DNA of 64,000 nucleotides from a bacterium (GTDB lineage: Bacteria > Hinthialibacterota > Hinthialibacteria > OLB16): contig JAJVIK010000013.1 of assembly GCA_022072055.1 (NCBI GenBank), forward strand, positions 248,001 to 312,000, given 5' to 3'. This document shows, in pieces, positions 21,780 to 63,485 of the stretch. The position numbers and the translations under genes are program-made. Within the stretch, counting starts at the first letter, position 1. Every line of letters starts with the position of its first letter. The notes beneath the pieces are model-generated. The model searched no databases. It worked only from the letters and a program-made list of their open reading frames with translations, and had not been told where the DNA came from.

Positions 21780-22353
21780 ACCGTCGCACCGAGATATTCT
21801 CTCCGCAGGTCCCGATCAGTTCCTTGACCAGATCGGAGATCTTTTTCTTGTCGTCCTTGATGAACAACTGGTCGAGAAGGCAGACCTCGGTGTAGAGCTT
21901 CTCGAGGCGCCCTTCCACCATCTTTTCAATCACCGGGGCCGGCTTGCCGGAAGATTCCGCCTGCTTGCGGTAAATCTCCTTTTCCGACTCAATGAAATCA
22001 GCCGGCAGATCCTCGCGGCTCACCCCGCGCGTTTGCGGGTTGGCCGCCACTTGCATGGCAAGGTCATTGACCAGGGTTCTGAACTGATCGGTGCGGGCCA
22101 CGAAGTCGGTTTCGCAATTGACCTCGATCAGAACTCCAATCCGCCCGCCACCGTGAATGTAAGCGTGGACCACCCCCTCGGAGGTGGTTCTGCCCATGCG
22201 CTTCTCGGCCTTGGCGGCGCCTTTTTCACGGAGGATCTTGACCGCGCCCTCCATGTCGCCGCCCGCCTCAACGAGGGCCTTCTTGCACTCCATCATCCCA
22301 ACCCCGGTCCGCTCCCGGAGCTTCATGACATCCGCAGCCGCGATATCCACCAC
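21748..22353 (-). CDS. tsf: Elongation factor Ts (short form)
   Basis: 201 residues. The N-terminal UBA-like domain (VMKLRERTGVGMMECKKAL) and the core with GRIGVLIEVNCETDFVAR are present, and the C-terminus ends RFVRFQLGE. It exchanges GDP on EF-Tu. At about 200 residues it belongs to the compact EF-Ts class seen in many phyla, not the about 280-residue E. coli form. It begins 2 bases after rpsB and overlaps pyrH. Confidence 0.96.
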   Translation of the reverse strand: MVDIAAADVMKLRERTGVGMMECKKALVEAGGDMEGAVKILREKGAAKAEKRMGRTTSEGVVHAYIHGGGRIGVLIEVNCETDFVARTDQFRTLVNDLAMQVAANPQTRGVSREDLPADFIESEKEIYRKQAESSGKPAPVIEKMVEGRLEKLYTEVCLLDQLFIKDDKKKISDLVKELIGTCGENISVRRFVRFQLGEQV

Positions 22354-22355
22354 GA

Positions 22356-23213
22356 TTAGACATCCTCCGTCACTTCAGGTAAGTCCACCATATCCTCGAT
22401 CTCCTCGAGGTCGATCACGGGGGTCGGGGTGGGACGGATCGGCTCAAGAGCCTCGGGATCCGCTCCCTCCGCCCGCTCTTGGCGAAGTTTTTGACCCTGG
22501 ACATAGGCGTTGGCGATCAGTTCCGTGATCAGCCGGACCGCGCGGATGGCGTCATCGTTAGCCGGGATTACATAGTTGATCGGGTCCGGGTCACAGTTGG
22601 TGTCCACAATGGCAATGACCGGGATGTTGAGCTTGTTGGCCTCCTCGACTGCGATTCGCTCCTTGCGGGTGTCGGTGACAAAAAGAGCGTCGGGCAGACG
22701 GTCCATTTGCCGGATGCCGCTGAGGTATTTGTGCAACCTCTCGCGAATCTTCATGAGGTTGAGCTGTTCTTTCTTGGTGCGGTGGGAAAGGGTGCCGTCC
22801 TCGCGCATGCGGTCGAGCTCGATCAGTTTGTTGACCCGGCCCCGAATGGTTTTGTAATTGGTGAGCATGCCGCCCAGCCAGCGGTGGGTCACATGGAAGC
22901 AAGAGATATTGGAGGCGATTTCCGCCACGCTCTCCTGCGCCTGGCGCTTGGTTCCCACGAAGAGGATCTTGCCCCCGCGGGCCGAGAGTTCCCTCACGAA
23001 CTCGCAGGCCTCGTGGATCATGCGGACTGTTTTCTTGAGGTCCAGGATGTAGATGCCGTTGCGCTCATTGAAGATGTATTTGGCCATCTTGGGGTTCCAG
23101 CGTCGGGTCTGGTGACCGAAGTGGACTCCCGCCTCCAAGAGCTGCTTCATGCTTATGCCATCTTCTTCGAGAATTTCCTCCGTCTGCATTTGCCGATTCT
23201 GTGCTTCGGCCAT
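22356..23213 (-). CDS. rpsB: 30S ribosomal protein S2
   Basis: 285 residues from ATG 23213, which has an AGGAG ribosome site 8 bases upstream; the 26 codons further upstream belong to the leader. The S2 core is complete: [47 protein letters not shown]-like, [13 protein letters not shown] and [14 protein letters not shown], with the C-terminal acidic tail ending in a proline-rich segment. It leads the rpsB-tsf-pyrH-frr-uppS cluster. Confidence 0.97.
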
Positions 23214-24433: not shown

Positions 24434-25786
24434 TTAATCGCTCGTCAGGCTGACACACACCAGCTCTTGATCGTTTCGCGCGTAGAGGCAGCGCTCGGCG
24501 AATGCCGGGTGAGACCAACAGACCTTGTGATCCCTCTGGGACATGTCCGTGGTGGGCTCGATGACCTTGGCGCGGCTGAGCTCCTCGAAGCCCTTGGGCG
24601 AGAGTCGACCGATCAGGAGCTCCCCAAGCTCGTTAAAGACCCAGACCACGTCCTGGTTTCGAACCATGTGGGCGGTTCCCCAACGAACATTGGGCACAAG
24701 GGACAGGTCTTCCCAAACACGCTCGCCCGTTTCCGCGTTCAGACAGCGGAACTCCCCGTAGGAATCCACGCCATAGACATGGCTCCCATCGAAGATGGGG
24801 GTCCCAATGGTGGAGTGGAGGCCATCCGTCTTGGTTTCGTTGATCCCCCGCCTCCTCCACAACTCCTCGACTCCGAGGCGATCCGTGAGCAGCCTGAGCA
24901 TCAGGCATCCATCAAAGAACGAGGTTATAAAGAGCCGGTCCCCCCGGATCACCGGAGAGGGAACATGCATGACCATCTTGGTCGGGCGGAAGGGGTGCTT
25001 CCAGTACACCTCTCCACTCTCGGGCGCCACTCCGACCACATGATTCCCCGTGACACAGACCAGCACGCGCTTCCCGGCCTGGTCGATCAGGATGGGTGAG
25101 GAATATGAGGCCGAGTCTTCCACCGCCCTCCATTTCTCTTCGCCGCCGGCTGGGTCGAACGCGACCAGGCAGCCCCCCCCCTCGCCACCGATTTGGAGGA
25201 TGACCCGATCCCCATCCGCGATCGGCGAGGCGGAGAGCCCCCAGATCGGCATCCGAACGTGGTATTCGGCTGCAAGGTCCTTGGACCAGAGAATTCGCCC
25301 GCTCACCGCATCAAGGCAGTGAAAGTGGCCCATCGTTCCGAGCGCGAATGCGCGCCCCTCCCGGACAGTGACCGACGCTCGCGGCCCGAGGGGATAGTCC
25401 ACCTCATAGCGGCACCTGTAAGAGTGAGTCCAAAGAGGCTTCCCATCATCGGCTCTGAAACAGAGGACGCGCTCAACCTCCTCAGGCTCGGTGAGGCGGT
25501 CCATCACGAAAACTTTGCCTTCGGAGACTGTCGGTCCGTTGAACCCACCGCCGACTGCGGCGGTCCACTTGGGCGCGAGGCGGGCGGAGGGAAACGAGCT
25601 GAGGACGCCGGTTTCGTTCCAAGAGGCGTCCCGCCTTGGTCCGCGCCACTGGGGCCAGTCCTCGGCCTGAACCATCGTGAGAGGGCCCCAAAGCAAGGTT
25701 GCGCCAAGGGGAAAGGCGAGCGCGCGACGAATCCTTCGGGGGGTCCGAAGGCGCCTTCCATCATGGGGCGGAACGGATTGCGTCAT
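24434..25786 (-). CDS. Exported PQQ-type beta-propeller protein (BamB-like)
   Basis: 450 residues from ATG 25786. A twin-arginine-containing N-terminus and a hydrophobic segment (LAFPLGATLLWGPLTMVQA) form the signal peptide. The mature protein begins DWPQWRGPRRDA, a common start of secreted PQQ-like propellers, and continues with repeated blade motifs such as GKVFVMDR, LWTHSYRC, GRILWSK, EVYWKHPF and YGEFRCLNAETGERVWED. The fold is an eight-bladed propeller shared by BamB and quinoprotein-like proteins; residues binding PQQ are not evident. It probably acts in the periplasm. Function unknown. Confidence 0.85.
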   Translation of the reverse strand: MTQSVPPHDGRRLRTPRRIRRALAFPLGATLLWGPLTMVQAEDWPQWRGPRRDASWNETGVLSSFPSARLAPKWTAAVGGGFNGPTVSEGKVFVMDRLTEPEEVERVLCFRADDGKPLWTHSYRCRYEVDYPLGPRASVTVREGRAFALGTMGHFHCLDAVSGRILWSKDLAAEYHVRMPIWGLSASPIADGDRVILQIGGEGGGCLVAFDPAGGEEKWRAVEDSASYSSPILIDQAGKRVLVCVTGNHVVGVAPESGEVYWKHPFRPTKMVMHVPSPVIRGDRLFITSFFDGCLMLRLLTDRLGVEELWRRRGINETKTDGLHSTIGTPIFDGSHVYGVDSYGEFRCLNAETGERVWEDLSLVPNVRWGTAHMVRNQDVVWVFNELGELLIGRLSPKGFEELSRAKVIEPTTDMSQRDHKVCWSHPAFAERCLYARNDQELVCVSLTSD

Positions 25787-25796
25787 AGCCTGTCCA

Positions 25797-25839
25797 AGAA
25801 ACACGAACCCCCTGGGTCATGGGGGACACAGGGGGTTCG
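25797..25839 (-). terminator. Intrinsic terminator after the ferredoxin gene
   Basis: An 11-pair perfect stem CGAACCCCCTG/CAGGGGGTTCG (25804-25814 and 25829-25839) with a 14-base loop is followed on the minus strand by TGTTTCTT. It ends the ferredoxin transcript and lies just before the start of the propeller gene. Confidence 0.8.
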
Positions 25840-25862
25840 CGCGGTCAGTATGTGTTCTCGTT

Positions 25863-26165
25863 TCAGTCGGCGTTGGCCAGTTTCGGGTCCCACTTGGGGC
25901 CATGGACCACGGAGGCCTTGTCGCTGACTCGCTTGCTCTCATCAAAATCGAAACCCGCGTTCTTCTCCGTCCACTCCTTGGGGGCTTCCGAATCCGGGAA
26001 GATGGCGTTGACCGGGCACACCGGCGCGCAGGCGTCGCAATCGATGCATTCCTCCGGGTTGATGTACAGCATGTCATCCCCCTGATAGAAGCACTCAACC
26101 GGGCAAACCTCCGCGCAATCTCCATACTTGCAGTTCACACACGGTTCAGTCACAACGTAAGCCAT
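25863..26165 (-). CDS. fdxA: 7Fe (3Fe-4S/4Fe-4S) ferredoxin
   Basis: 100 residues. The cysteine spacing CVNCKYGDCAEVCPVECF near the N-terminus and CIDCDACAPVCP near residue 40 matches Azotobacter-type FdxA ferredoxins, with the extra C-terminal part (about 60-100, NAGFDFDESKRVSD) also typical of that group. It is a cytoplasmic electron carrier; the partner is not shown by context. It is a single gene with its own terminator. Confidence 0.92.
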   Translation of the reverse strand: MAYVVTEPCVNCKYGDCAEVCPVECFYQGDDMLYINPEECIDCDACAPVCPVNAIFPDSEAPKEWTEKNAGFDFDESKRVSDKASVVHGPKWDPKLANAD

Positions 26166-26326
26166 TGAGATTCTCCTTGGGTATTTCTGCCGGCGGTCCG
26201 AACAATCGGGCCCGGTCTGGCACGTAGTTGAAGCAAGTTTAGTCGAAGCGCGCCCGGTTTAGAAGGGAATCTCGCCTTCACGCTCAGGTGATCGGCTTCC
26301 GGGAGTTCCCCCTCGGGGGTGGCCTT

Positions 26327-45262: not shown

Positions 45263-46420
45263 GTGAAGCAGGAGAAGTGGGTGTATTCCTGGAATCCGAG
45301 GGATCAGATGACCAAGGCGGAGAAGTTCACCGGGACCTCCGACACCTACGCGGGCAAGGTCGAGTACGAGTACTGCCTCTCCTGCGACGGAGCGCTCTCC
45401 AAGCGGCGGGAGTACAGCACGACCCAGTCCGGGAACATCATCCAGGAGCGGCGGTACGAATACGATGGCCTCAACCTCTTGCGGGTGGATCAGCGGGTGG
45501 ACACGGACGGCGATGGGGTGATCGAGGCGGGGGAGACCGCTTGGCGGCATGTGGAGGTGAACAGCCACCGGCCCGGCGCGCTCGGCGCACAACTCGGCAA
45601 ACGCGCTTACCTCTACGCCAACGGCCAGAGCACCACGCCCTCCTCGACCACCGACTACGCGTATGTGTATGATCCGGTCGGGAATGTGTGGGTGATTCTC
45701 TCCGACATGGGGGAAGAAGTGTACTGGTTCAGCCAGGATGCCTTCGGCAATGAACTGTCGATCTCCCCCTTCGCGGGCACCTCGTGGCAAACCGCGCGCA
45801 CCGCTGGGATCACGGAACACCAGACAGGCAAGTGGATTGATCCGTTTACGGGCCTCTATTTCTTCCATGCTCGCTGGCTGGACGCGGGAGTGGGGAGGTT
45901 TGTGGGGAGGGATCCGGCGAGGGAATATGGCGGCAGGATTTACTCCCTGGCCTACAATCTTCCCACAAAGAATGTCGATCCGACTGGGAAGTTTGGCGGT
46001 TGCGGCATTGGGGGTCCGAATTGTTTTCCGCCGCCGCCACCACCACCACCGCCTGGACCGTGTTCAGATGTTGTGGATAAGATCTATACAAACCCACCGC
46101 ACTTTGAGAATGATGTGTGCCGTCATAAGAACCATTGCTATGCCTGTTGTATGATACGAATGTGTTCTTGCGCTGGTGTCGGCACCATCGCAGCCTGGCT
46201 TGCACAAGGGTGGAAGGAGGGTGGCGACATTTTTTGTGCCCCGGGATCGGATGTCTGTAGGGATTGGGATGCCTGCAATTATGGTATCGATAGAGGGTCT
46301 CAGTATTGGTTCTCAGCCTTCAGGTCTTTGAATTCAGACAAGCACTGTAAGAATGCCTGTGATAATCCAATATGGGACACCACAGACTCGAGTCAGTGTA
46401 TACCGGATACATCGCCATGA
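45263..46420 (+). CDS. RHS-repeat C-terminal fragment with Cys-rich tip (5'-truncated candidate toxin)
   Basis: The frame opens at 45182 right after an in-frame TGA; the first standard start is GTG 45263, giving 385 residues. No ribosome site or N-terminal export part is visible, so this is likely a 5'-truncated RHS gene. It contains YD-type repeats (YEYCLSCDGALSKRREY) and the RHS core end (GLYFFHARWLDAGVGRFVGRDP, NPT-type VDPTGKFGG). A Pro run of nine and an unrelated tip with 15 cysteines follow. The tip begins an AT-richer stretch. RHS proteins usually carry a variable C-terminal toxin after this core. The stop overlaps the next start by ATGA. Confidence 0.75.
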   Translation: MKQEKWVYSWNPRDQMTKAEKFTGTSDTYAGKVEYEYCLSCDGALSKRREYSTTQSGNIIQERRYEYDGLNLLRVDQRVDTDGDGVIEAGETAWRHVEVNSHRPGALGAQLGKRAYLYANGQSTTPSSTTDYAYVYDPVGNVWVILSDMGEEVYWFSQDAFGNELSISPFAGTSWQTARTAGITEHQTGKWIDPFTGLYFFHARWLDAGVGRFVGRDPAREYGGRIYSLAYNLPTKNVDPTGKFGGCGIGGPNCFPPPPPPPPPGPCSDVVDKIYTNPPHFENDVCRHKNHCYACCMIRMCSCAGVGTIAAWLAQGWKEGGDIFCAPGSDVCRDWDACNYGIDRGSQYWFSAFRSLNSDKHCKNACDNPIWDTTDSSQCIPDTSP

Positions 46421-47475
46421 AGCGGTCGCTACGGTTGTATGCAGTATGGACTTCGATTGGAGCGATCTTCGGTGGGGGGGTTATACTTGTGAGATTGGCT
46501 CTCGGAGACAATTACCGAGACCATGGGCAGTTCAATGAGAAGACAAGACTGAGGATTCATTCTGACCGCATAACAGATCTGGCAGTGTCTCCTGACTCGA
46601 TCATTTACACCAGTTCATGGGATGGGACGGTCAGATCCGCAAGCGCATCAAACCTGGAGACTGTTAGAACCTATAAGCCTCTTAACGACCAGATATATAT
46701 TAATTGCGTTGCGATCTTTAGAGATTCTCGCCGGTTTGCCTCAGGTGCTGATGACGGGAAGATTCGCATATGGAGAATCGAAGACGAATCTCCATTTCTT
46801 GAAATGCGCGCTTCGGAGAAATGGCATATTACGGCACTTGATATCGACAGGGACGACACGCGCATGCTGTCTGGAGATGCAGGAGGTACAGTATCTGTAT
46901 GGGAGCTTCCGTCAGGGAGGAGGGTCTCAACACAAAAACTGTCCGACAGCGGCGTAAAGGAAGCGCGGTTTGTAGATGGCTCACATGTTGCGATAATAGT
47001 TTTCGAATGCGGGACAATTTGCATATTCAATCTAACAACCGGTTCGGAAGTGTGGCGAAGAGGTGACCTCGGCATTAACTCGGTTGATTGTCAGATAGTG
47101 TCGACACGCTTGGTAACAAGCGGGCAGGACTCAACAGTACGCTTGTGGGACCTGCACACAGGATCCATATTGTGGGAATATGCGGCAATGGATGGTACAT
47201 CAATCAGTTGTGTTCGCTTTTTGAAGTCATCGGACGCGATACTCGCCGCATGCTCGATCCAACGATCGTTCCGATCAGACATTGGCGTGATTGCAACCTT
47301 AAATCCTGGCGAAGAGAATCCGATTCAATACCATATGAACGCAAGCCGTCCGGTGGAAAGGTTTGAGCTACTTGAATCTCTTCCAATGGCCGTATTCTTT
47401 AGCAATGCCCCAGTGTGGAAGCGATTCGAGATTGGACTGTGGGAGCTGCAAACTGATCCGGTGGAGGAGTTCTAA
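46417..47475 (+). CDS. Membrane-anchored WD40-repeat protein, candidate immunity protein
   Basis: 352 residues from ATG 46417, sharing ATGA with the RHS tip stop. One transmembrane helix (LYAVWTSIGAIFGGGVILV) is followed by about six WD40-like blades (ITDLAVSPDSIIYTSSWDG, FASGADDGKIRIWRIED, MLSGDAGGTVSVWELP, LVTSGQDSTVRLWDLHTG). The base composition is visibly AT-richer than the surroundings and codon use differs, a sign of recent acquisition together with the tip. A small gene placed directly behind an RHS tip is the usual place of the immunity gene, but WD40 proteins are not the common immunity type, so this role is inferred from position only. The stop abuts the next RHS remnant. Confidence 0.7.
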   Translation: MKRSLRLYAVWTSIGAIFGGGVILVRLALGDNYRDHGQFNEKTRLRIHSDRITDLAVSPDSIIYTSSWDGTVRSASASNLETVRTYKPLNDQIYINCVAIFRDSRRFASGADDGKIRIWRIEDESPFLEMRASEKWHITALDIDRDDTRMLSGDAGGTVSVWELPSGRRVSTQKLSDSGVKEARFVDGSHVAIIVFECGTICIFNLTTGSEVWRRGDLGINSVDCQIVSTRLVTSGQDSTVRLWDLHTGSILWEYAAMDGTSISCVRFLKSSDAILAACSIQRSFRSDIGVIATLNPGEENPIQYHMNASRPVERFELLESLPMAVFFSNAPVWKRFEIGLWELQTDPVEEF

Positions 47476-47476
47476 C

Positions 47477-47830
47477 CTCAACAAGAACGGCACGATCACC
47501 GAGGACCTCACCTGGACGCTGGAGTACAACGGCTTGAACGAACTCGACGTCGCTACAGCGGGGCCTCCTGGACCGGGGCCAACGGGGACACGCGGATCGA
47601 CTACGCCTACGACACCAACGGCAACCTCACCCAAGCGCTCAAGGAGACCAAGAGCGGCGGGGCCTGGAGTCAGGCGGAGAAGTGGGACTACACTTGGAAT
47701 GTGAGGGACCAGATGACCCGCGCGGTGAAGTACACGAACACGGCCAACAATGTCGGGTCGGTCGAGTACGAGTACTGCCTGTCCTGCGATGGGGCGCTGT
47801 CGAAGTGGGCGGTGAGTGCGGCTCGGAGCA
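47477..47830 (+). pseudogene. RHS-repeat remnant with frameshift
   Basis: Directly after the WD40 stop the frame reads LNKNGTITEDLTWTLEYNG, typical of RHS repeats. A frame change near 47545 moves the rest (DYAYDTNGNLTQALK, WNVRDQMTRAVKY, VEYEYCLSCDGALSKW) into another frame, and similarity ends near 47810. About 45 bases, 47760-47805, resemble 45358-45403 of the first RHS fragment (for example GAGTACGAGTACTGCCT shared), so the two are relatives. It has neither start nor core and is not expected to be functional. Confidence 0.8.
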
Positions 47831-47887
47831 AAGGGGACATTTCCCTTCCCCTGTCTCTCGGGTCGTCCCCGGTGGTACCTTCACCAG

Positions 47888-48382
47888 ATGGAAATCCGAC
47901 ACCTCGCTCAGGTCTTCCGCATCCTCCGCGCTCACAGCGACCAAGTCGGTCCCGCATCGGTCACTGAGATTTCAGAAAACCACAAGGATGATCCGTACCG
48001 CGTCCTCATCTCCTGCCTCATCAGCCTGAGAACCAAGGATGAGGTGACCGAGGCGGCGAGCGCCCGGCTTTTCGAGCTGGCGGACACTCCCTCCAAGGTG
48101 ATCAAGCTACCGGAGGCCGCCATCGCTAAGGCGATCTATCCCGCGGGGTTCTACCGTACCAAGGCCAAGATCATCCGGGAGATCAGCGCCGAGATTCTGT
48201 CCCGGTTCGCGGGCAAAGTTCCTCAGGAGATCGACGACCTGCTCACCTTGAAGGGCGTGGGGAGAAAGACCGCGAACCTGGTGGTCACACTCGGATATGG
48301 GAAGCCGGGAATCTGTGTGGACACTCATGTGCACCGAATCACAAACCGATGGCGATCTGTTGCCTATTTGCCGTATTCTTAA
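47888..48382 (+). pseudogene. nth: Endonuclease III, truncated by element insertion
   Basis: From ATG 47888 the frame encodes the N-terminal two thirds of Nth: [39 protein letters not shown], the helix-hairpin-helix [13 protein letters not shown] with the catalytic Lys, and [12 protein letters not shown] with the catalytic Asp. Exactly after ITNRW the sequence becomes unrelated (RSVAYLPYS then stop), and the four-cysteine iron-sulfur loop that Nth needs is missing. The break coincides with the 3' end of the serine recombinase gene on the other strand. The remaining piece of nth is not found in the window. Base-excision repair by this copy is presumably lost, unless the start fragment is rescued on excision. 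Confidence 0.85.
48339..48353. other. Probable attachment-site junction of the recombinase element in nth
   Basis: Nth similarity stops within the codons for NRW (48344-48352), and the recombinase stop codon lies in the same bases (48339-48341). The last two or three codons of the recombinase are thus made from target-gene DNA, as is often seen where a serine integrase gene lies beside its own att site. The core is probably within about 48341-48353; the second copy could not be found. Confidence 0.6.
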
Positions 48383-49835
48383 GAGCGGGGAGATAGAAAA
48401 GGTTGATTTCCACTGAATTCTCCCCGATTTTGATGGACTCTGTAATCGCCTCAACCAGCCTGCGTTTCTCGTCAAACTCCATGTGCGGCCACTGTGCGGA
48501 GAGGTTTCTGGCTTCCTCCAGGATCTGCTCCTCGGAAAGGTGACTGATCCGGATGTAGTCGCACTCCGCCTCCAGCCGGGGAATCTCGTCCTCCAGTTGC
48601 GCCAGCCGTTCCTCCATGGGTCGGTACTTGGCCCCGAATCCTTCCCCAGTTATCCGGTCTTTCAGGTACAGGTGATAGACCTTATCCATCTCGGCCCGAA
48701 GTTTCTCCTCCTCTCGCCCCAGAACCTTCAGAATTTCCTCCTTCTCCTGGAGAACCTGGTCACCATTCGCCAAGTGTTGAACAACATCCTCCGGGGAAAG
48801 AAAGTAATCCTTGATTTGGTCCTGAAAGACGAACTCCAAATCGTCGGCTGGAATCTTCGTTCGGCACGCTTGGCAGGTGTACTTGGTGGAATTGGAAGGG
48901 ACGTACATCTTTTGCCCGCACTGGCAAACCACAAGTCCGGCAAACAGGTGGCTGGGACGTTTCCCTGGCGCTATCTTGGTCCTCTGTTGCTCGTTGAGAA
49001 GATGATTGGCGGCGTTCCAGATTTCTTCCGACACGATGGGGTCGGATTCCTGCCAAACCCATTCCTCCTCCGGCTTCAGGGCAACCTGGCCATCCTTGAG
49101 AGTCTTGGTGTAGTTCGCGCGATGAACACCTTTGGCCGTGGGATCGGTAATGGCTCGTTTGATGGCGGTATCGGAAAAGAGAGCCCCAGAAGAGGTTCGG
49201 TAACCCGCTTCATTCAAGATGCGTGCGACCGTTTTCTTCCGTTTGTGTTCGAGGAACAAATCGTAGATCATTTTCCGGACCGGGGCCTCTTGCGGGTGCG
49301 GGATCAACCGGTTGCCTTCCCACCGGTAGCCATAGGGGGCTTTGCCGCCCACGTTCTTACCCATCTTCGCCCGGATCGGCACCGAGGCCGCCACCCGATC
49401 CGCGATCTCTTCCCGTTCCCATTGCGCCATGGCGGCGATCATGGTGTAGAACAACCGACCGGCAGGCGTGCTCGTGTCAATGGACTCTTGCAACGAGATC
49501 AGATCGGTTCCGCACGACTGAAAGATTTCGGAGAACTCCAGAAGCTCCCTGGTGTTGCGAGCAAGTCTCGCGAGTTTCGAAAAAATGAGTCCCTGGATGT
49601 GCCCGGTTCGAATATGCTCCAGCATCAACTGGGTCTCAGGACGGTCCATGACGGACTTGCCGCTGACGGCGTCCAGGCGATACACCTCAACAACCGTCCA
49701 ATCTCGGGATTCGGCATACGCCCGCGCTCGCCGTTCATGGTGCTCTGGACTTTCACCCCTGACTTGGTCTTCAGTAGAGACGCGAATCCAGATGCCAACC
49801 CGCTTCTCGCCGTCAGACTTGCCTTTCGTGATCAT
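48339..49835 (-). CDS. Large serine recombinase
   Basis: 498 residues. N-terminal resolvase domain (about 12-155) with catalytic S20 in IRVSTEDQ and the conserved [12 protein letters not shown] and [13 protein letters not shown] segments. A recombinase domain follows (about 165-270, [17 protein letters not shown]), then a zinc ribbon (about 300-330: CQCGQKM and CQAC) and a coiled coil (about 350-450). This is the large serine integrase architecture used for site-specific integration and excision of mobile elements. The gene ends in the interrupted nth gene. Its ATG shares one base with the upstream ATPase stop (TGATG), so translation is coupled to that ATPase. Confidence 0.95.
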
Positions 49836-52800
49836 CAGTCTGCGCCTCGCTTCTTCTGCTTCCGTTGAGCCATCGTCTTGGCGATGATCTCTGCCACCAC
49901 CCGTTGTCTTTCCTGTTTGTCCTGTTCGCTCACTGCTTTATGCTTGCGCGCTACATCGTATCCACGCACGGTCCCCGCTTGGGCTTTACTCGCAGCCGCT
50001 TCCTCTTTCAGGTAAAAGATTAAATCCGGAACTGTGAGGCAGTCGATTCGTTCCAATTCGGCTGCCGAGAAGGTCTCTTCCAACCGTCTTTTTAGGGTAC
50101 TCAACCGTTTGGCTTCCGCAACGATCAGGAACACTTCGTCGTACTTCTCCGTCTCGAGATACTTCCGAAGTTTGCCAAGTTCATACTCAGTCGTGGAGGT
50201 CACCGTGATCTCGCAAGCGATGGAGCGTTTGCCTAATTCCAGGACCACGTCAGCGCTACCGCCCGCGTCCAGTTTTCGTTCGATACTGACGCGGAATCCG
50301 AGTTCTTCTCCCTCAAGTTTAATCAGCTCCTGAAGGCGCTTATGTTCCGGTCCGCCCCTGCCGGGGCTTGAGGGGGGTTTGGGAACATACACGGGTGGTT
50401 CCACTGGTGCGACAGCGGGTGGAGGAACCGGCCGGGAAGGAGGCTCTGGCGGACGAGTCTCCCGCGCCGGTTCAGGTTCCACCGAATCGGGTTGTGGTGC
50501 GGCCGCTTCGGGCTCCGGCTCTGCGGCTTTCTTCCTTCGGCGCGGCTTCGGATCGAATTCCTCCTCAAAGGCTCCGCCTGACTCGTCTTCGTACTCCTTG
50601 GCAATCTCCCTCGCGATTTCGGCCCGCGACCGGCAATAGAGGTTGTGGGTCCGGGTGGTCACATACTCATGGTTCCATTGCACGCGGTCTTCGTTGAGCG
50701 GCGGTAAAGACGGGACCGACAGATTGAAATCGTTGTCCGCTCGTTCGATTCGGGCGATGGCCTCTCCCACGCCCAGATTCCGCAAGTCGGAGCTCTCGAA
50801 GGTCGAGAAACCATCGTCCAGTTTCCGAGCGTCCTGGTCATCGACGCGGAAGCAGACGCGGGTGAACGGGTGGGTGAGGACCGCACTCGCCAAATCCGAT
50901 CCGCCCAGTTGGTGGAGTTCCTGGTGGGCGAGAATCAATCCGAGTTTGTATTTTCGAGTGCCCGACAGAATCGCGTTCATGGAGGGGGTGACGAAGTTGT
51001 GGCACTCGTCGATGTAAAGGTAGAAGGGGCGGCGGTCGGATTCTCTCAAGTCCTGACGTGACATGGCGGTTTGCTGAAACTTCGAGACCAGAAAACTCCC
51101 AAGAAGATAGGCATTCTTTTCCCCGATGGCTCCCTGGGAGAGTCGCGCCAAGAGGATCTTGCCGCTATCCATGATGGATCGGAAATCGAGTTTGCTCTCC
51201 TTTTGCGCCATCATGTCTCGAATCGGTTTGAGCGAGAAGAAAGCATTCAGCCGCGTGAGAATGGAGGCGTGAGGTTTCCCAGAAAGTTGCGGAAACTCCT
51301 TGCGCCAATAGTAGACCAGTTCGGGTTCCTGGACCGTTCGGAGGAATGCGTTTCGGAAGTTCTTGTCCACAAGGAATCGTCGCAGGTCTCGTAGCGTCCC
51401 ACCTTCGCTGCTCTCAAGAAAAGCAAGAATCGCATTGCTGAGCACCGACGTCATTTGGTCGCCCCAGCTCGTGGAGAGCCGTTGAAACGCTGACACCAGG
51501 TCCGAAGAGAGGAGGGTTTTTTCGATTTCGGAGTGCGCGGTCAGGATGTTCAGCCCGACGGAATACTCGTAATCGGAAGGGTCGACGAGAATGATGTCGT
51601 CAAGCCGTTCTTGAGGCGCGTACCCGATGATCTGGTCAATCAAGTCGCCGTGCGGATCGAGGACGGCGAAGCCGTTTCCCTCCTTCATGTCCTGACGAAT
51701 CATTTGAAGTAGAAACGTGGACTTGCCGGTGCCGGAAGCGCCAATCACATGCATGTGACGGCTGCGTTGCTCGGGGGAGAGGGAGACTTGGGTGGTTTTC
51801 CGTTGATGAGTGTTCTCGCCAAGGACGAAGGAATGGCCCTTGGCGATCTCCGGCGATGCCTTCGTTCGGCCGATTTGCTTGCGAATCTTCGGGGACCGGA
51901 CCGAGGCGGAAGGGAGGTGGGCCAGCGATGCGAGTTCCTCGGCGTTCAAGATCATCCCGCAGCGGTGCGAGCGGCGCTCGAACAAGTCCTCTTCGTGTTC
52001 GTCATCAGGGTACATCTGGTTCGTCAGAGGAATGAGTTCGTTTCCATCCCCACGCGAGTACTGGCCAAGCGCCCCCCCAATGCCTCTGACCACTTGCCAC
52101 GACCGCCGGTTGTCGGCCCCCGCCATGGCGACGCGAACCACCGCCGCATAGAGTGGGGAAGCCATCTTCTCTTGAGTTAGGAGGAGCATATTTTGGTCCT
52201 CAAAGACCGAATCACCCTCCCAGTCGGTGACCGCTCTCAAAGTGCTCTTGGCCCAGGGATGTTGAACCGCCTGAAAGACAACCTGGAAAACAGCCGTCTC
52301 GTCGTCGCGTAGGCGACCCATGGCCCCCACAATGGATGTGAGCGGATCGGGATCGAATGCGGAGATCGACTCCAGTGGGACCATGAACTCCTGCGAGAGC
52401 CCGAAATCCACAATCACGGCGTGGCGTCGGCGCATCCGGCTCCAAAGGGATTGCAGCGCTCCCGTCTGCTCGTTAAGGAGGCAATCCGGAAAGTGGCTCT
52501 CAAGTTGTGGGGAGACTTGGGGTAAATCAGAATCGCTGCATACGACCTGCACGCTGATCGTCTCCGCCGTTCCGATGATCTCGAAGGCAAGAGGGTCGTG
52601 GCAGTGCCGCAGGCTCTGAATGAACCTCAGCCACCCGTCCTTAGTGACCTTGAGCGATGCGGGAATCGCGATGTCGATTTCAATCAGGAGTCGAGGGGAA
52701 TCGATGATTTCCGGATCGGGTTCCTCGATCTCGTCATAGTCCGAAACCTGCGGCTCCGGTTTTGATCGCGACCAACCTGTCCCGATCTTTTCGACGAGAC

Positions 52801-53020
52801 GACTGAATAAGGTATGATGCCGCCCGTCGTCAACGGCGCGGGGTGGCTCAGGCAGTTCCCAAGTGAAGGGACGGAAAGGCGGCTCCAGTTCAACGGGCGC
52901 GTCGTAGAGAACCCACCCTCTGCCCCGGTGCTCCCAAGAGTAGAAATGGTAAAGCAGCCGCTCCGCGAGACTCATCGAACCAGGTCTGAAGGACGAGACA
53001 GGGGAGGAGTCGGAGGCCAT
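49835..53020 (-). CDS. VirD4/HerA-like ATPase with PD-(D/E)xK-like C-terminal domain
   Basis: 1061 residues. Residues 1-400 are a poorly conserved region. A RecA-fold ATPase follows (about 420-780) with Walker A GASGTGKST at 427-435, FAVLDPHGDLIDQII, and Walker B YLYIDECHNF near 667-676, as in conjugative coupling proteins and HerA-type translocases. A Pro/Glu-rich linker (about 825-890) leads to a restriction endonuclease-like domain (about 893-1000): LEGEELGF, D924 in GGSADVVLE and E937 in ACEITVT. The Lys expected in E-x-K is replaced by Thr. No transmembrane helix is visible; the preceding gene supplies two. It may move element DNA or act in defence. Confidence 0.85.
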   Translation of the reverse strand: MASDSSPVSSFRPGSMSLAERLLYHFYSWEHRGRGWVLYDAPVELEPPFRPFTWELPEPPRAVDDGRHHTLFSRLVEKIGTGWSRSKPEPQVSDYDEIEEPDPEIIDSPRLLIEIDIAIPASLKVTKDGWLRFIQSLRHCHDPLAFEIIGTAETISVQVVCSDSDLPQVSPQLESHFPDCLLNEQTGALQSLWSRMRRRHAVIVDFGLSQEFMVPLESISAFDPDPLTSIVGAMGRLRDDETAVFQVVFQAVQHPWAKSTLRAVTDWEGDSVFEDQNMLLLTQEKMASPLYAAVVRVAMAGADNRRSWQVVRGIGGALGQYSRGDGNELIPLTNQMYPDDEHEEDLFERRSHRCGMILNAEELASLAHLPSASVRSPKIRKQIGRTKASPEIAKGHSFVLGENTHQRKTTQVSLSPEQRSRHMHVIGASGTGKSTFLLQMIRQDMKEGNGFAVLDPHGDLIDQIIGYAPQERLDDIILVDPSDYEYSVGLNILTAHSEIEKTLLSSDLVSAFQRLSTSWGDQMTSVLSNAILAFLESSEGGTLRDLRRFLVDKNFRNAFLRTVQEPELVYYWRKEFPQLSGKPHASILTRLNAFFSLKPIRDMMAQKESKLDFRSIMDSGKILLARLSQGAIGEKNAYLLGSFLVSKFQQTAMSRQDLRESDRRPFYLYIDECHNFVTPSMNAILSGTRKYKLGLILAHQELHQLGGSDLASAVLTHPFTRVCFRVDDQDARKLDDGFSTFESSDLRNLGVGEAIARIERADNDFNLSVPSLPPLNEDRVQWNHEYVTTRTHNLYCRSRAEIAREIAKEYEDESGGAFEEEFDPKPRRRKKAAEPEPEAAAPQPDSVEPEPARETRPPEPPSRPVPPPAVAPVEPPVYVPKPPSSPGRGGPEHKRLQELIKLEGEELGFRVSIERKLDAGGSADVVLELGKRSIACEITVTSTTEYELGKLRKYLETEKYDEVFLIVAEAKRLSTLKRRLEETFSAAELERIDCLTVPDLIFYLKEEAAASKAQAGTVRGYDVARKHKAVSEQDKQERQRVVAEIIAKTMAQRKQKKRGAD

Positions 53021-53026
53021 GATTCA

Positions 53027-53704
53027 TCACCTCCTGAAGAAGTCCCGATTGATTGGTTTCCGCTCCGAATCACTCATGCGAGGAAGACTCTTGGCGTCGG
53101 TGAGGGCATCGATAACCTCAAGCACCGATGAGTGGACCGATGCTTGAAACATGAGGGCCGTGTCGTATTCAAAGTACGAGATTCCGCGTTTGAAGACATT
53201 CCAGATGCCGCCGAATAGGGTGAGGCCGAGGAGGAACTCTTCCACCTCCACGGGGCCCCTGAACCCGCCAGCACGAACAAAAACCCAGATGAGCAAGAGG
53301 GCTCCAATGAGAGCGGAACCCCCTTTGGCGACACCCCAGTATTGAGCGACGAAGAAGTAAAAAAAGAACGCGGTCGTCGCCATCCCGATCAAATGAAAGA
53401 TCGTGAGCGTGGGACGGAGCATGACCAGCCACGCGGAAAAGAAAAAGTCTCTGCCGAATGGCGCGGCGCAGATGTCATAGACGAGCCGCCTCCGCCCAAT
53501 TCGTAGGTACTCGCGATCCGCGCTCAGAAAACTCCCCTCTTTCCAGATCACACGCGAGACCTCCAGTCCGGGGATTTCATGTTTGGCAAGAGCGGCTTCG
53601 ACGGATTGGTAGAACTCCGAAGGGGACGTACTGAAATGGGTAAAGTACTTCGGCCAGCGGGAGATGAGTTCCGCGCCCCTGGTCTTTTTCCAACCTGGTT
53701 CCAT
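53027..53704 (-). CDS. Two-helix membrane protein, partner of the VirD4-like ATPase
   Basis: 225 residues from ATG 53704, the first Met before the conserved-looking KKTRGAELISRWPKYFTHF. A soluble N-terminal part (about 1-95) is followed by two transmembrane helices (LTIFHLIGMATTAFFFYFFVA, then ALIGALLLIWVFVRAGG) and a short soluble C-terminus ending in KPINRDFFRR. No family was recognised. It ends 6 bases before the ATPase gene, so the two are very likely made together. VirD4 proteins normally have their own two N-terminal helices; here this protein may provide the anchor (inference). It diverges from hsdM; the gap 53,705-53,879 shows no clear promoter. Confidence 0.65.
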   Translation of the reverse strand: MEPGWKKTRGAELISRWPKYFTHFSTSPSEFYQSVEAALAKHEIPGLEVSRVIWKEGSFLSADREYLRIGRRRLVYDICAAPFGRDFFFSAWLVMLRPTLTIFHLIGMATTAFFFYFFVAQYWGVAKGGSALIGALLLIWVFVRAGGFRGPVEVEEFLLGLTLFGGIWNVFKRGISYFEYDTALMFQASVHSSVLEVIDALTDAKSLPRMSDSERKPINRDFFRR

Positions 53705-53879: not shown

Positions 53880-55529
53880 ATGGGCGAACTAATGGCTAGA
53901 AAAACCGGCTCGAAAAACAACAGCAAACCTTCCAACGGGGCCAACCTCGGCTTCGAGGCCGCCATGTGGGCGGCGGCGGATAAACTCCGGGGCCACATGG
54001 ACGCCGCCGAGTACAAGCACGTCGTCCTCGGGCTGATCTTCCTCAAGTACATTTCGGATGCTTTCGAGGAGCATCACGCCAAACTTCTTGAGGACCCGGA
54101 GGCAGACCCGGAGGATCGCGACGAATACATCGCCCAGAATGTCTTCTGGGTTCCCAAGGAAGCCCGCTGGTCCCAGCTCCAAGCAAACGCCAAACAGCCC
54201 ACCATCGGCAAGTTGATTGACGACGCCATGATCGCGGTCGAACGCGAGAACCCCGCGCTCAAAGGGGTGCTGCCCAAGGACTACGCCCGTCCCACGCTGG
54301 ACAAGCACCGGCTTGGAGAATTGATCGACTTGGTGGGCAACATCGGGCTGGGCGACAAGGAAAGCCGTTCCAAGGATATCCTGGGCAGGGTCTACGAATA
54401 CTTCCTCTCCCAGTTCGCCAGCGCCGAAGGCAAGAAGGGCGGCCAGTTCTACACGCCACGCTGCGTCGTGCAGGTGCTGGTGGAAATGCTTTCTCCTTAC
54501 AAGGGGCGCGTGTTCGACCCGTGCTGCGGTTCGGGCGGGATGTTTGTCCAGAGCGAGAAGTTCGTGGAGGCCCACGGCGGCCGGATCGGGGACATCAGCA
54601 TTTTCGGTCAGGAGAGCAACCCGACCACCTGGCGGCTGGCCAAGATGAACCTGGCGATCCGTGGGATCGAGGGCAACCTCGGCCCAGAGAACGCCGACAG
54701 TTTCCATCGCGACCTGCACCCGAGCCTCAAGGCCGATTATGTCCTGGCTAACCCGCCGTTCAACGACAGCGATTGGGGCGGGGACCGGCTTCGTGAGGAT
54801 GTGCGATGGAAGTACGGGACGCCCCCGGCTGGCAACGCCAACTACGCCTGGGTCCAGAATTTTATTCATCACCTGTCGCCGACCGGGCTGGCCGGGTTCG
54901 TTCTCGCCAACGGGAGCATGTCTTCCAATCAGTCCGGCGAGGGGGAGATCCGCAAGGCCATCATCGAAGCCGATCTGGTGGACTGCATGGTGGCGCTGCC
55001 GGGGCAGTTGTTCTATTCGACCCAGATCCCGGTCTGTTTGTGGTTTCTCCGCCGAGACAAACGCCGGTTGCCCGCGCATTCCGGGGGCGAGGCCGCCGAC
55101 CGGCGCGGGCAAACCCTGTTCATCGACGCCCGCAAGATGGGCCGGTTGATTGACCGCGTTCATCGCGACCTGGACGAGGCGGACATTCAAAAGATTGCCG
55201 GGACCTATCATGCCTGGCGCGGCGATGCTCCCTCTCCCTCGATGGGAGAGGGCCGGGGTGAGGGTGCTTCTGGCCGGGGCGCGGGTGTTTACGAAGACAT
55301 TGCCGGGTTCTGCAAAAGCGCTTCGCTGGACGATATCCGCGGGCACGGGTTCGTGCTTACGCCGGGGCGGTATGTCGGAGCCGCCGAGGTCGAGGATGAC
55401 GGCGAGCCGTTCGAGGAGAAGATGGCGCGGCTGGTCGAAACTTTGGATGGGCAGTTCGCGGAATCCGCCCGGCTCGAAAAAGAGATCCGGTCGAACCTAA
55501 CCAAACTGGGGTTTGCGTTCAAATCATGA
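53880..55529 (+). CDS. hsdM: Type I restriction-modification methylase subunit HsdM
   Basis: 549 residues. N-terminal helical HsdM domain (about 18-160, [16 protein letters not shown]), then the SAM-dependent N6-adenine methylase with motif [12 protein letters not shown] and motif IV NPPF. The C-terminus has [10 protein letters not shown], typical of HsdM. It methylates adenine in the recognition site set by HsdS and forms a complex with HsdS and HsdR. An in-frame insert of about 20 residues (455-475 region, [13 protein letters not shown]) comes from a palindromic repeat. A second ATG at 53892 (MARKTGSKN) could be the true start. The hsdM-hsdS-hsdR order is split by other genes. Confidence 0.95.
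55228..55287. repeat. Invasive palindromic repeat inserted in frame in hsdM
   Basis: CCCTCTCCCTCGATGGGAGA and the following GGGCCGGGGTGAGGGTG match the widespread extragenic palindromic repeat whose antisense translation reads [11 protein letters not shown]. Here it lies inside hsdM without breaking the frame. It was recognised from the typical words TLTPALS on the minus strand and GEGRGEG on the plus strand. Confidence 0.75.
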
Positions 55530-55618
55530 CTTCGGAATCGCTCAATCCCGCCGCCCGATTGCGTTCGACCCTTCGAAAAGGGGATTTTCGACGAATCCAC
55601 AGTTTTGATTTCCGGGCC

Positions 55619-55647
55619 TTGCAATCGGGTATCCGATCGGGTATATT
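55619..55647 (+). promoter_or_regulatory. Strong promoter in front of the NYN gene
   Basis: TTGCAA (55619-55624), a 17-base spacer and TATATT (55642-55647). The predicted start is near 55654. It lies in the 192-base gap between hsdM and the NYN gene, so the genes after hsdM have their own promoter. Confidence 0.7.
55630..55643. promoter_or_regulatory. Palindrome in the promoter spacer, possible operator
   Basis: TATCCGATCGGGTA is an imperfect 14-base palindrome (two mismatched positions) centred between the -35 and -10 boxes. A repressor bound here would block RNA polymerase; no repressor gene with a helix-turn-helix is seen in the locus. Confidence 0.45.
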
Positions 55648-55663
55648 TCAAATACGACTTACT

Positions 55664-55708
55664 CCCCACTGGACTTGCCGAAAGGCCTCCAGTGGGGTTT
55701 TGCTTTTT
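55664..55708 (+). terminator. Intrinsic terminator or attenuator between the promoter and the NYN gene
   Basis: A 10-pair perfect stem, CCCCACTGGA/TCCAGTGGGG (55664-55673 and 55688-55697), is followed by TTTTGCTTTTT. It starts about 10 bases after the predicted transcription start and ends 14 bases before the NYN start codon. Transcripts would therefore stop after about 50 bases unless the stem is prevented from forming. Confidence 0.85.
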
Positions 55709-55721
55709 AAGGGGGTTCGTT

Positions 55722-56348
55722 ATGGCGACTGAACCCTCCATCAAGCGAGCCTGCGCCTTCTTCGACGGCCAGAACCTCTACCGGACGGCCAAGACGGCGT
55801 TCGGTCACCACTTCCCGAACTACCAGCCCCTTCAACTCGCTCAGGCCGTCTGCGCCCTGAAGGGGTGGACCTTGGCGAGCGTTCATTTCTACACCGGCGT
55901 TCCCGATGTCGCCGACGATCCCCAATGGAATCACTTCTGGACCAACAAACTTCGAGGCATGGGGAAGTGCGGGATCAAGACTTATTCGCGCCCGCTGCGG
56001 TATCGCAACCAGACCGTGCGTCTTCCTGACGGAACGGAGCACACCTTCCTGGTCGGTCAGGAGAAGGGGATCGACATTCGGATCGCACTCGATGTGGTGC
56101 GGATGGCGCGGTCGCGCGATTACGACGTGGCGCTGATCTTCAGCCAGGACCAGGACCTTTCGGAAGTAGCGGACGAGGTCAAGCAAATCTCCATCGAGCA
56201 GGACCGCTGGATCAAGGTCGCTTCCGCTTTCCCGTTCAGTCCCACGACCACCAACCGACGCGGCATCAACGGAACCGATTGGATCAAGATCGACCGGGCG
56301 ATGTACGACTCGTGCTTGGATGGGAATGATTACAGGGTGAAAACGTAA
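55722..56348 (+). CDS. NYN-domain (LabA-like) putative RNase inside the type I RM locus
   Basis: 208 residues from ATG 55722, with an AAGGGGG site 5-12 bases upstream. The NYN fold is clear: CAFFDGQNLYRTAK near residue 11 (Asp15, Asn18), EKGIDIRIALDVVRMA, and DVALIFSQDQDLSEVADEV with the acidic residues of a PIN-like active site. NYN proteins are metal-dependent nucleases, mostly acting on RNA. Adjacent genes are hsdM and hsdS; hsdS starts one base after its stop, so it belongs to the same transcript as the specificity subunit. A backup function acting when the restriction system is inhibited is possible (inference). Confidence 0.87.
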   Translation: MATEPSIKRACAFFDGQNLYRTAKTAFGHHFPNYQPLQLAQAVCALKGWTLASVHFYTGVPDVADDPQWNHFWTNKLRGMGKCGIKTYSRPLRYRNQTVRLPDGTEHTFLVGQEKGIDIRIALDVVRMARSRDYDVALIFSQDQDLSEVADEVKQISIEQDRWIKVASAFPFSPTTTNRRGINGTDWIKIDRAMYDSCLDGNDYRVKT

Positions 56349-56349
56349 T

Positions 56350-57645
56350 ATGAGCACCTCATCCTCACGATTAGAAAATGCTGAACTCAACGGATGGCGA
56401 CCTGGTACGGTCGGCGGATTGACAGATAACTTCGACGGTCAACGCATCCCAGTGAAAGAGGCGGATCGAAAACCCGGCCCATATCCATACTATGGGGCTT
56501 CGGGAATTGTAGACCATGTGGACCAGTACATTTTCGATGGGGAATATCTGCTTGTTGCCGAGGATGGAGAAAATCTGAAGACCCGGAAAACTCCGATTGC
56601 GTTTCTCGCAGACGGTAAATTCTGGGTGAATAATCATGCCCATATTGTCCGAGGAAACTCCGAGAACGACACTCGTTTCCTCATGTATGCATTGAATAAC
56701 GCTGACATCAGCGGGTATCTCACGGGTTCCACCATGCCCAAGCTAACACAGGGCAACCTAAATCGCATTCAACTGAATATCCCACCCCTCCCCGAGCAGC
56801 GGGCCATTGCGCACATCCTGGGGACGCTTGACGACAAGATCGAGAACAACCGGCGGATGAACGAGACGTTGGAGGCGATGGCGCAAGCCCTGTTCAAGTC
56901 GTGGTTCGTGGACTTCGATCCCGTCCGCGCCAAGATGGAAGGCCGCCCCCCCGTCGGCATGGACTCCGAAACCGCCGCGCTGTTCCCGGACCGCCTCGTC
57001 GATTCGGAGATCGGGGACATCCCGGAGGGGTGGGGGGTTGAACCAATCGGGGACCTTGTTCGAGTGGTTGGCGGCGGAACCCCAAGTACAAAGAATCCGG
57101 CCTTTTGGGATGGAGTCCTCCACTTTGCTACACCGAAGGACCTGTCATCTCTAACCTCACCAGTGCTCTTGGAAACCGAAAGGAAGGTCACCGACGAGGG
57201 TCTGCAGAAAATCAGTTCTGGACTCTTGCCAGCGGGAACAGTGTTGCTCTCTTCTCGCGCCCCAATTGGATACCTGGCAATCACAGAGATCCCCGTGGCA
57301 GTAAACCAAGGCTTCATCGCGATGGTCTGCGACGGTCCTCTTCCGAACCTCTATGTTCTGCATTGGACGAAAGAGAATTTAGAAGTAATCCTCTCCAAAG
57401 CCAATGGATCGACTTTTCAGGAGATCAGCAAAGCAAATTTTCGACCAATACCCGCGCTCGTGCCGCCAAGCGAGATCTTTGACGAATTCATCAAGACCGT
57501 CGGACCACTCCATAATCTGATCGTGGAGAACTTGCAGTCGTCGAACACCCATTCCGTCGCCCGCGACAGGCTGCTGCCGAAGCTGCTTTCCGGGGAGATT
57601 CGGGTGAAGGATGCGGAGGGGTGGGGGGAGAGTCGGCCAATATGA
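56350..57645 (+). CDS. hsdS: Type I restriction-modification specificity subunit HsdS
   Basis: 431 residues with two target recognition domains. Each half ends in the conserved helix region: first half PLPEQRAIAHILGTLDDKIENNRRMNE near 150-175, second half ending HSVARDRLLPKLLSGEIRV. The half-site repeat is as expected (YPYYGASGIVD and KFWVNNHAHIV in TRD1, FATPKDLSSL and GSTFQEISKANF in TRD2). It reads the bipartite DNA site for HsdM and HsdR. It starts one base after the NYN stop, and its stop overlaps the AbiJ-like gene by ATGA. Confidence 0.95.
   Translation: MSTSSSRLENAELNGWRPGTVGGLTDNFDGQRIPVKEADRKPGPYPYYGASGIVDHVDQYIFDGEYLLVAEDGENLKTRKTPIAFLADGKFWVNNHAHIVRGNSENDTRFLMYALNNADISGYLTGSTMPKLTQGNLNRIQLNIPPLPEQRAIAHILGTLDDKIENNRRMNETLEAMAQALFKSWFVDFDPVRAKMEGRPPVGMDSETAALFPDRLVDSEIGDIPEGWGVEPIGDLVRVVGGGTPSTKNPAFWDGVLHFATPKDLSSLTSPVLLETERKVTDEGLQKISSGLLPAGTVLLSSRAPIGYLAITEIPVAVNQGFIAMVCDGPLPNLYVLHWTKENLEVILSKANGSTFQEISKANFRPIPALVPPSEIFDEFIKTVGPLHNLIVENLQSSNTHSVARDRLLPKLLSGEIRVKDAEGWGESRPI

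Positions 57646-60386: not shown

Positions 60387-63485
<3,099 letters not shown>

Follow-up and report, generated by a model that had tools for sequence, protein, structure and literature searches.

A membrane protein, a VirD4/VirB4-type ATPase with a nuclease-like tail and a large serine recombinase at one end of a putative integrated element of Hinthialibacterota

To our knowledge, only few cases of cell-to-cell DNA transfer without a type IV secretion system (T4SS) have been described, namely TraB and TdtA. DNA donation by the element ICETh1 of Thermus thermophilus proceeds without a T4SS and needs the HerA-like ATPase TdtA, a NurA-like nuclease and a restriction enzyme (TthHB27I), while the DNA is taken up by the competence system of the recipient (PMC5365140, PMC7767461). 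MobC is present in those mobilizable elements that bring a VirD4 of their own (PMC5704250), and the Replic_Relax family PF13814 is grouped with the MobC relaxases (PMC5357655). No description of the elements reported below was found in the literature (open PMC text).

The window, i.e. the whole analysed stretch of 64,000 nucleotides, contains three consecutive genes on the minus strand, encoding a membrane partner protein (MP), a large ATPase and a large serine recombinase (Table 1). The earlier note had described them as one coupled unit, and both the gap of 6 bases between MP and ATPase and the one-base TGATG overlap between ATPase and recombinase are present. The mechanically called open reading frame of MP begins at 54052, and the ATG at 53704 is backed by homologues. 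Judged from its sequence context, this trio is one end of an integrated element, comprising approximately 5 kb out of roughly 20-45 kb, since the host gene nth is split and inverted half-sites are found at both junctions.

Table 1. Features of the window around the trio, with positions in window numbering
Feature	Position	Strand	Remarks
Host nth (endonuclease III), 5' half, cut by the element	47816..48352	+	HhH-GPD match; frame lost after HRITNRW
GATGG common to both nth junctions	48348..48352	.	Junction comparison; element starts about 48353
att half-site GGCAAATAGGCAAC	48359..48372	-	Just inside the window junction
Large serine recombinase (integrase)	48339..49835	-	498 aa; PF00239 114 bits, PF07508 59 bits; PHROG 95 integrase
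Large VirD4/VirB4-type ATPase with nuclease-like tail	49835..53020	-	1061 aa
PD-(D/E)xK-like tail domain of the ATPase, residues 888-1012	49985..50359	-	
Membrane partner protein MP	53027..53704	-	225 aa; alpha/beta domain and helical hairpin
HsdM, type I methyltransferase (cargo)	53880..55529	+	PF02384 351 bits; PADLOC MTase_I
NYN-domain protein between hsdM and hsdS (cargo)	55605..56348	+	PF01936
HsdS specificity subunit (cargo)	56350..57645	+	PF01420
HsdR type I restriction enzyme (cargo)	60387..63485	+	

The final codons and the stop codon of the recombinase gene fall within nth DNA. A genome search located the missing C-terminal half of nth at positions 1135-1338 of contig C9, near the start of that contig, and an inverted partner of the half-site, GGCAAAAAGGCAAT, lies just inside this second junction. 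Related elements inserted in comM likewise have the half-site at each end; assuming uniform bases, 0.013 matches with at most one mismatch would be expected by chance per 42 kb. We infer that C6, the contig of the window, and C9 carry the two ends of one element, joined across an assembly gap, of which approximately 40.5 kb on C6 and 1.1 kb on C9 are visible (about 42 kb plus the assembly gap). Beside the far junction, inside the element, a second nth copy was observed (L017, G000:C9, 128-641), showing 81% DNA identity to the nth of the window over the shared stretch; its 5' end is missing and it adjoins transposase-like sequence. This copy may be a replacement for the gene broken by the insertion.

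The recombinase could be assigned to the large serine recombinases, a group characterised by a Resolvase catalytic domain, a Recombinase domain, a zinc ribbon and a coiled coil; the Resolvase and Recombinase domains scored above cut-off and the zinc ribbon below it (18.4 vs. 25.3). Several features are shared with the SCC cassettes and their CcrA/CcrB recombinases, namely large serine recombinases, of which one lineage has two per element, type I restriction-modification cargo, and primase and helicase-like genes. The target genes are different, however, and the recombinase models for SCC scored far lower than required (CcrB 128.2 bits vs. 900, CcrC 110.7 vs. 900). We know of no SCC cassette with a VirD4-like pair and MP. 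In four acidobacterial loci (L047, L050, L059, L067) the terminal recombinase has 308-323 aa and no catalytic resolvase domain (E36 25253-26203), and may be a DNA-binding partner in this lineage; E36 also has a second, full-length serine recombinase.

Complete relatives of the element were found in comM. In seven loci, the recombinase gene reads into a fragment of comM that is broken after or close to MNP, and an eighth fragment adjoins a reverse-strand recombinase. Via the other comM half, complete elements could be delimited in G014 (42.8 kb) and G017 (36.5 kb). In the isolate Sediminibacterium ginsengisoli DSM 22335, the two comM halves enclose a further complete element, approximately 21.7 kb long, whose half-site deviates from the consensus. 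Common to all three are the recombinase, one or more RuvC-like genes with an HTH gene, a short VirD4-like ATPase, MP and the large ATPase. They also have an HTH gene at the far junction, and the HTH gene at the C9 junction is of the same type. In DSM 22335 the frame of the short ATPase is interrupted (L137 16500-17672, then 18661-18927). As cargo, the window element and G014 have type I restriction-modification genes, G017 has a SAVED-HNH effector together with methyltransferase/restriction genes, and DSM 22335 has a Gabija-like pair, recognised by eye. Additional genes in one lineage encode a second serine recombinase, a P-loop ATPase of about 450 aa and, in many cases, a primase; having seemed universal from four elements, this P-loop protein was rejected as a universal component, being limited to this lineage. 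Verrucomicrobial elements add a Replic_Relax (MOBC-type) protein and a CHC2 primase, and some of them an ArdC-RadC polyvalent protein.

The short VirD4-like ATPase of the window element is encoded just outside the window, at 72318-73598 in window numbering; farther along, at 87077-87937, there is an ArdC-like gene. The claim that no other conjugation gene is present thus holds for the annotated genes of the window but not for the element. Short and large ATPase were both present in all 14 genomes searched with a short-ATPase profile, usually 2-28 kb apart on one contig, and on different contigs in G035 and G047. SWIM-like and Cas4-like PD-(D/E)XK genes stand beside the short ATPase in C6 (74541-76375 in window numbering; L015 17542-19376), C3 and G017. 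A second, internal large serine recombinase is kept in four elements, namely at 80368-81897 in window numbering (L018 4369-5898), at C3 15363-16892, in G014 and in G017, near the P-loop ATPase of about 450 aa, for which no family match was obtained.

Contig C3 of the same genome carries a second, diverged element in mirror image, with its ATPase pair at 21865-23082 (short) and 45514-48675 (large). Backbone segments of the two elements mostly show 82-91% DNA identity, whereas identity drops to 65-72% for recombinase, ATPase and MP, which indicates that module and backbone have different histories. The order hsdM, NYN-domain gene, hsdS is repeated in the C3 element. Both elements are bordered, immediately beyond their recombinase end, by an exact repeat of 42 bp, part of an RHS-like coding repeat (window 47760-47801; G000:C3 50289-50330). 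A C3 reading frame of 2499 aa, considered as a conjugation-linked protein, was rejected as an FG-GAP/beta-helix protein.

A scan of GTDB species genomes yielded 342 relatives of the large ATPase, the best 80 of which were kept for locus analysis. Among these 80, the aligned relatives come from at least 13 named phyla, and most match from approximately residue 17 to 1055, tail included. Of the 72 loci with upstream sequence, 69 have MP as the immediate upstream neighbour of the ATPase, and 59 of the 69 gaps measure between -41 and +42 bases; only L038, L082 and L102 have upstream room and no detected MP homologue. In 38 of the 80 loci a homologous recombinase follows the ATPase downstream and in the same orientation. 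It lies within 340 bases of the ATPase in 24 of them; in the others cargo intervenes and the distance reaches up to 8.2 kb. In four further loci the recombinase is on the opposite strand. ATPase distances correlate with those of MP (r=0.67) and of the recombinase (r=0.62), and 0 of 999 permutations gave a correlation as high. Pairing and correlated distances together indicate that MP and ATPase are a tight unit, with the recombinase forming the end of the element to which they belong. The three-gene coupling expected by the earlier note among homologues is therefore confirmed for MP, while cargo frequently stands between ATPase and recombinase, and the recombinase can also be found on the opposite side.

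On the ATPase tree the phylum labels change 19 times, with a minimum possible of 12, and ATPases of a Bacillota bin and a Moraniibacteriota bin are 82% identical. As far as can be read from sequences, this pattern supports recent transfer across phyla, although misbinning can contribute to it, many loci being from metagenome-assembled genomes. Plasmid and phage collections contained only distant, core-only relatives. Among 2.9 million viral contigs there were three full-length matches, one again in comM, and nothing at these three points to a virus of its own.

The core of the large ATPase matched TrwB_AAD_bind (45.7 bits, cut-off 20.5) and DUF87 (25.7, cut-off 23.2), and the Walker A/B residues G430, G432, K433, D671 and E672 are kept in 65 of 65 homologues. 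The predicted model (pLDDT 85.2) matches TrwK/VirB4, TrwB and HerA, with only the motor core fitting well. Phage proteins of the SPO1 gp27.4 type (PHROG 5156) are homologous to residues 282-808 (209.8 bits), but have no known MP, tail or recombinase partner. The tail model has the alpha-beta-beta-beta-alpha-beta topology of the PD-(D/E)xK core, while the tail alone matched no Pfam or PDB family. As read earlier from the window sequence alone, D924 and E937 are present and a Thr replaces the ExK lysine: E914, D924, E937 and E947 are invariant (65/65), and position 939 is never Lys among the homologues. K953, in the helix after the ExK position, is Lys in 61 of 65, and may be the migrated ExK lysine of this predicted nuclease.

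An ATPase-nuclease fusion in elements rich in defence genes could suggest a defence or exclusion device of HerA-nuclease type, in which MP would hold the enzyme at the membrane to destroy incoming DNA of phages or competitor elements. In this respect the ATPase resembles the SIR2-HerA and DUF4297-HerA anti-phage systems, which likewise combine an ATPase of the FtsK-HerA superfamily with an associated nuclease, and the PADLOC mad8 and HerA models do touch its core. These matches are weak and core-only, however: HerA models reached 16.2-16.9 bits around the P-loop, against cut-offs of 970 and 800, so that membership in HerA-NurA or HerA-nuclease defence was rejected. The fused tail and the MP partner are further differences. 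Moreover, the module is element backbone and not swapped cargo, staying constant with the short ATPase (14/14) while defence genes vary, and it always lies in an element context where boundaries are visible. A defence or exclusion role is consequently considered unlikely, as is a stand-alone HerA-nuclease defence, and the earlier suggestion to this effect was not borne out.

For MP, a model with pLDDT 87.3 was obtained, consisting of an N-terminal alpha/beta domain, a hairpin of the adjacent helices 102-123 and 125-144, and C-terminal helices. A fold search against PDB gave no significant match, and no family was found in the family-model, PADLOC or PHROG searches. No obvious membrane hairpin, i.e. 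no N-terminal anchor of VirD4/T4CP type, is seen in the ATPase model; MP may for this reason serve as membrane anchor of the ATPase, as its predicted structure would allow. The proposal that the VirD4 anchor has been split off agrees with this separate, conserved protein, a candidate for the anchoring role. A membrane partner would be unusual if the module only handled the DNA of its own element within the cell, resolving replication intermediates or assisting segregation or synapsis together with the RuvC-like protein, as FtsK does with a recombinase, and with no export. RuvC-like and HTH genes are indeed constant companions, and some lineages have a primase and the P-loop ATPase beside the second recombinase. 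Two coupling-type ATPases, as well as MOBC and ArdC in sister elements, are left unexplained by such a role, which appears quite unlikely to us.

Annotation of the elements brought to light no T4SS channel gene. In the host genomes VirB4 (PF03135) was the VirB family covered by the search; of 15 genomes, two have it, and in the remaining 13, that of the window among them, it was not detected. Replic_Relax was not found in the window's genome, in which a PF03432 relaxase occurs once, on contig C30, outside both elements. The presence of Replic_Relax in the sister elements is the best independent hint of transfer that the sequences offer, because PF13814 is classed with MobC relaxases and MobC is what mobilizable elements equipped with their own VirD4 contain. 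Streptococcal integrative mobilizable elements (IMEs) and some mobilizable plasmids combine their own VirD4 with a MobC relaxase (PMC5704250, PMC5357655). They resemble the present elements in being integrative, in their own coupling ATPase and, in some, in a serine recombinase, and the VirD4-like and MOBC pair of the verrucomicrobial elements would fit passage of an IME with its own coupling proteins through the pore of a co-resident conjugative T4SS. The result for VirB4, with no resident T4SS detected, the minimal element without relaxase, and the additional MP and ATPase-nuclease, for which no IME counterpart is known, make this route quite unlikely as well.

We lean towards the view that the trio is the transfer-and-integration end of a T4SS-less integrative element, transfer itself being deduced from gene content. 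The nearest tested precedent for the pump that this view proposes is, by analogy, TdtA of ICETh1. Both ICETh1 and the present elements are small integrative elements with an FtsK/HerA-class ATPase (hexameric in ICETh1), a nuclease (predicted here from the tail) and a restriction enzyme. TdtA, however, is HerA-like, of approximately 64 kDa, and acts with a separate NurA, whereas the ATPase described here is VirD4/VirB4-like with a fused tail, and a second ATPase and a separate membrane protein accompany it. A further difference is that ICETh1 sits in a tRNA gene. The recombinase would excise and reinsert the element, and the large ATPase would form a ring that MP holds at the inner membrane and that pumps the DNA of the element from the donor to the outside. 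Its nuclease-like tail would make or trim the pumped DNA end, standing in for a dedicated relaxase, and the short ATPase could deliver or move DNA together with the large one. The entry route might be provided by the recipient, e.g. its competence machinery, or by a co-resident pore. In the verrucomicrobial versions the MOBC-type protein probably cuts, and primase and ArdC would serve the incoming strand, while defence cargo would pay the host. Against transfer count the minimal element without recognised relaxase or pore and the tail without canonical ExK lysine. The minimal mobilisation or DNA-processing device suggested before stands in outline, supported by the element backbone, the separate membrane partner and the lack of a complete T4SS, and has to be extended by the short ATPase.

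A bolder version, possible but doubtful in our judgement, is that these are undescribed, phylum-crossing self-transmissible elements in which two VirD4/VirB4-type ATPases and one MP are the whole transfer apparatus, the tail replacing the relaxase, with no T4SS and in the minimal form no relaxase. If true, this module would be a general answer to the question how defence islands move among poorly studied bacteria; the elements that contain it come from at least 13 phyla, and for some of these groups no conjugation system is known. The minimal element of 21.7 kb in a cultured isolate makes direct testing possible, and the integrases with their common half-site, targeting nth and comM, are candidate tools for site-specific integration.
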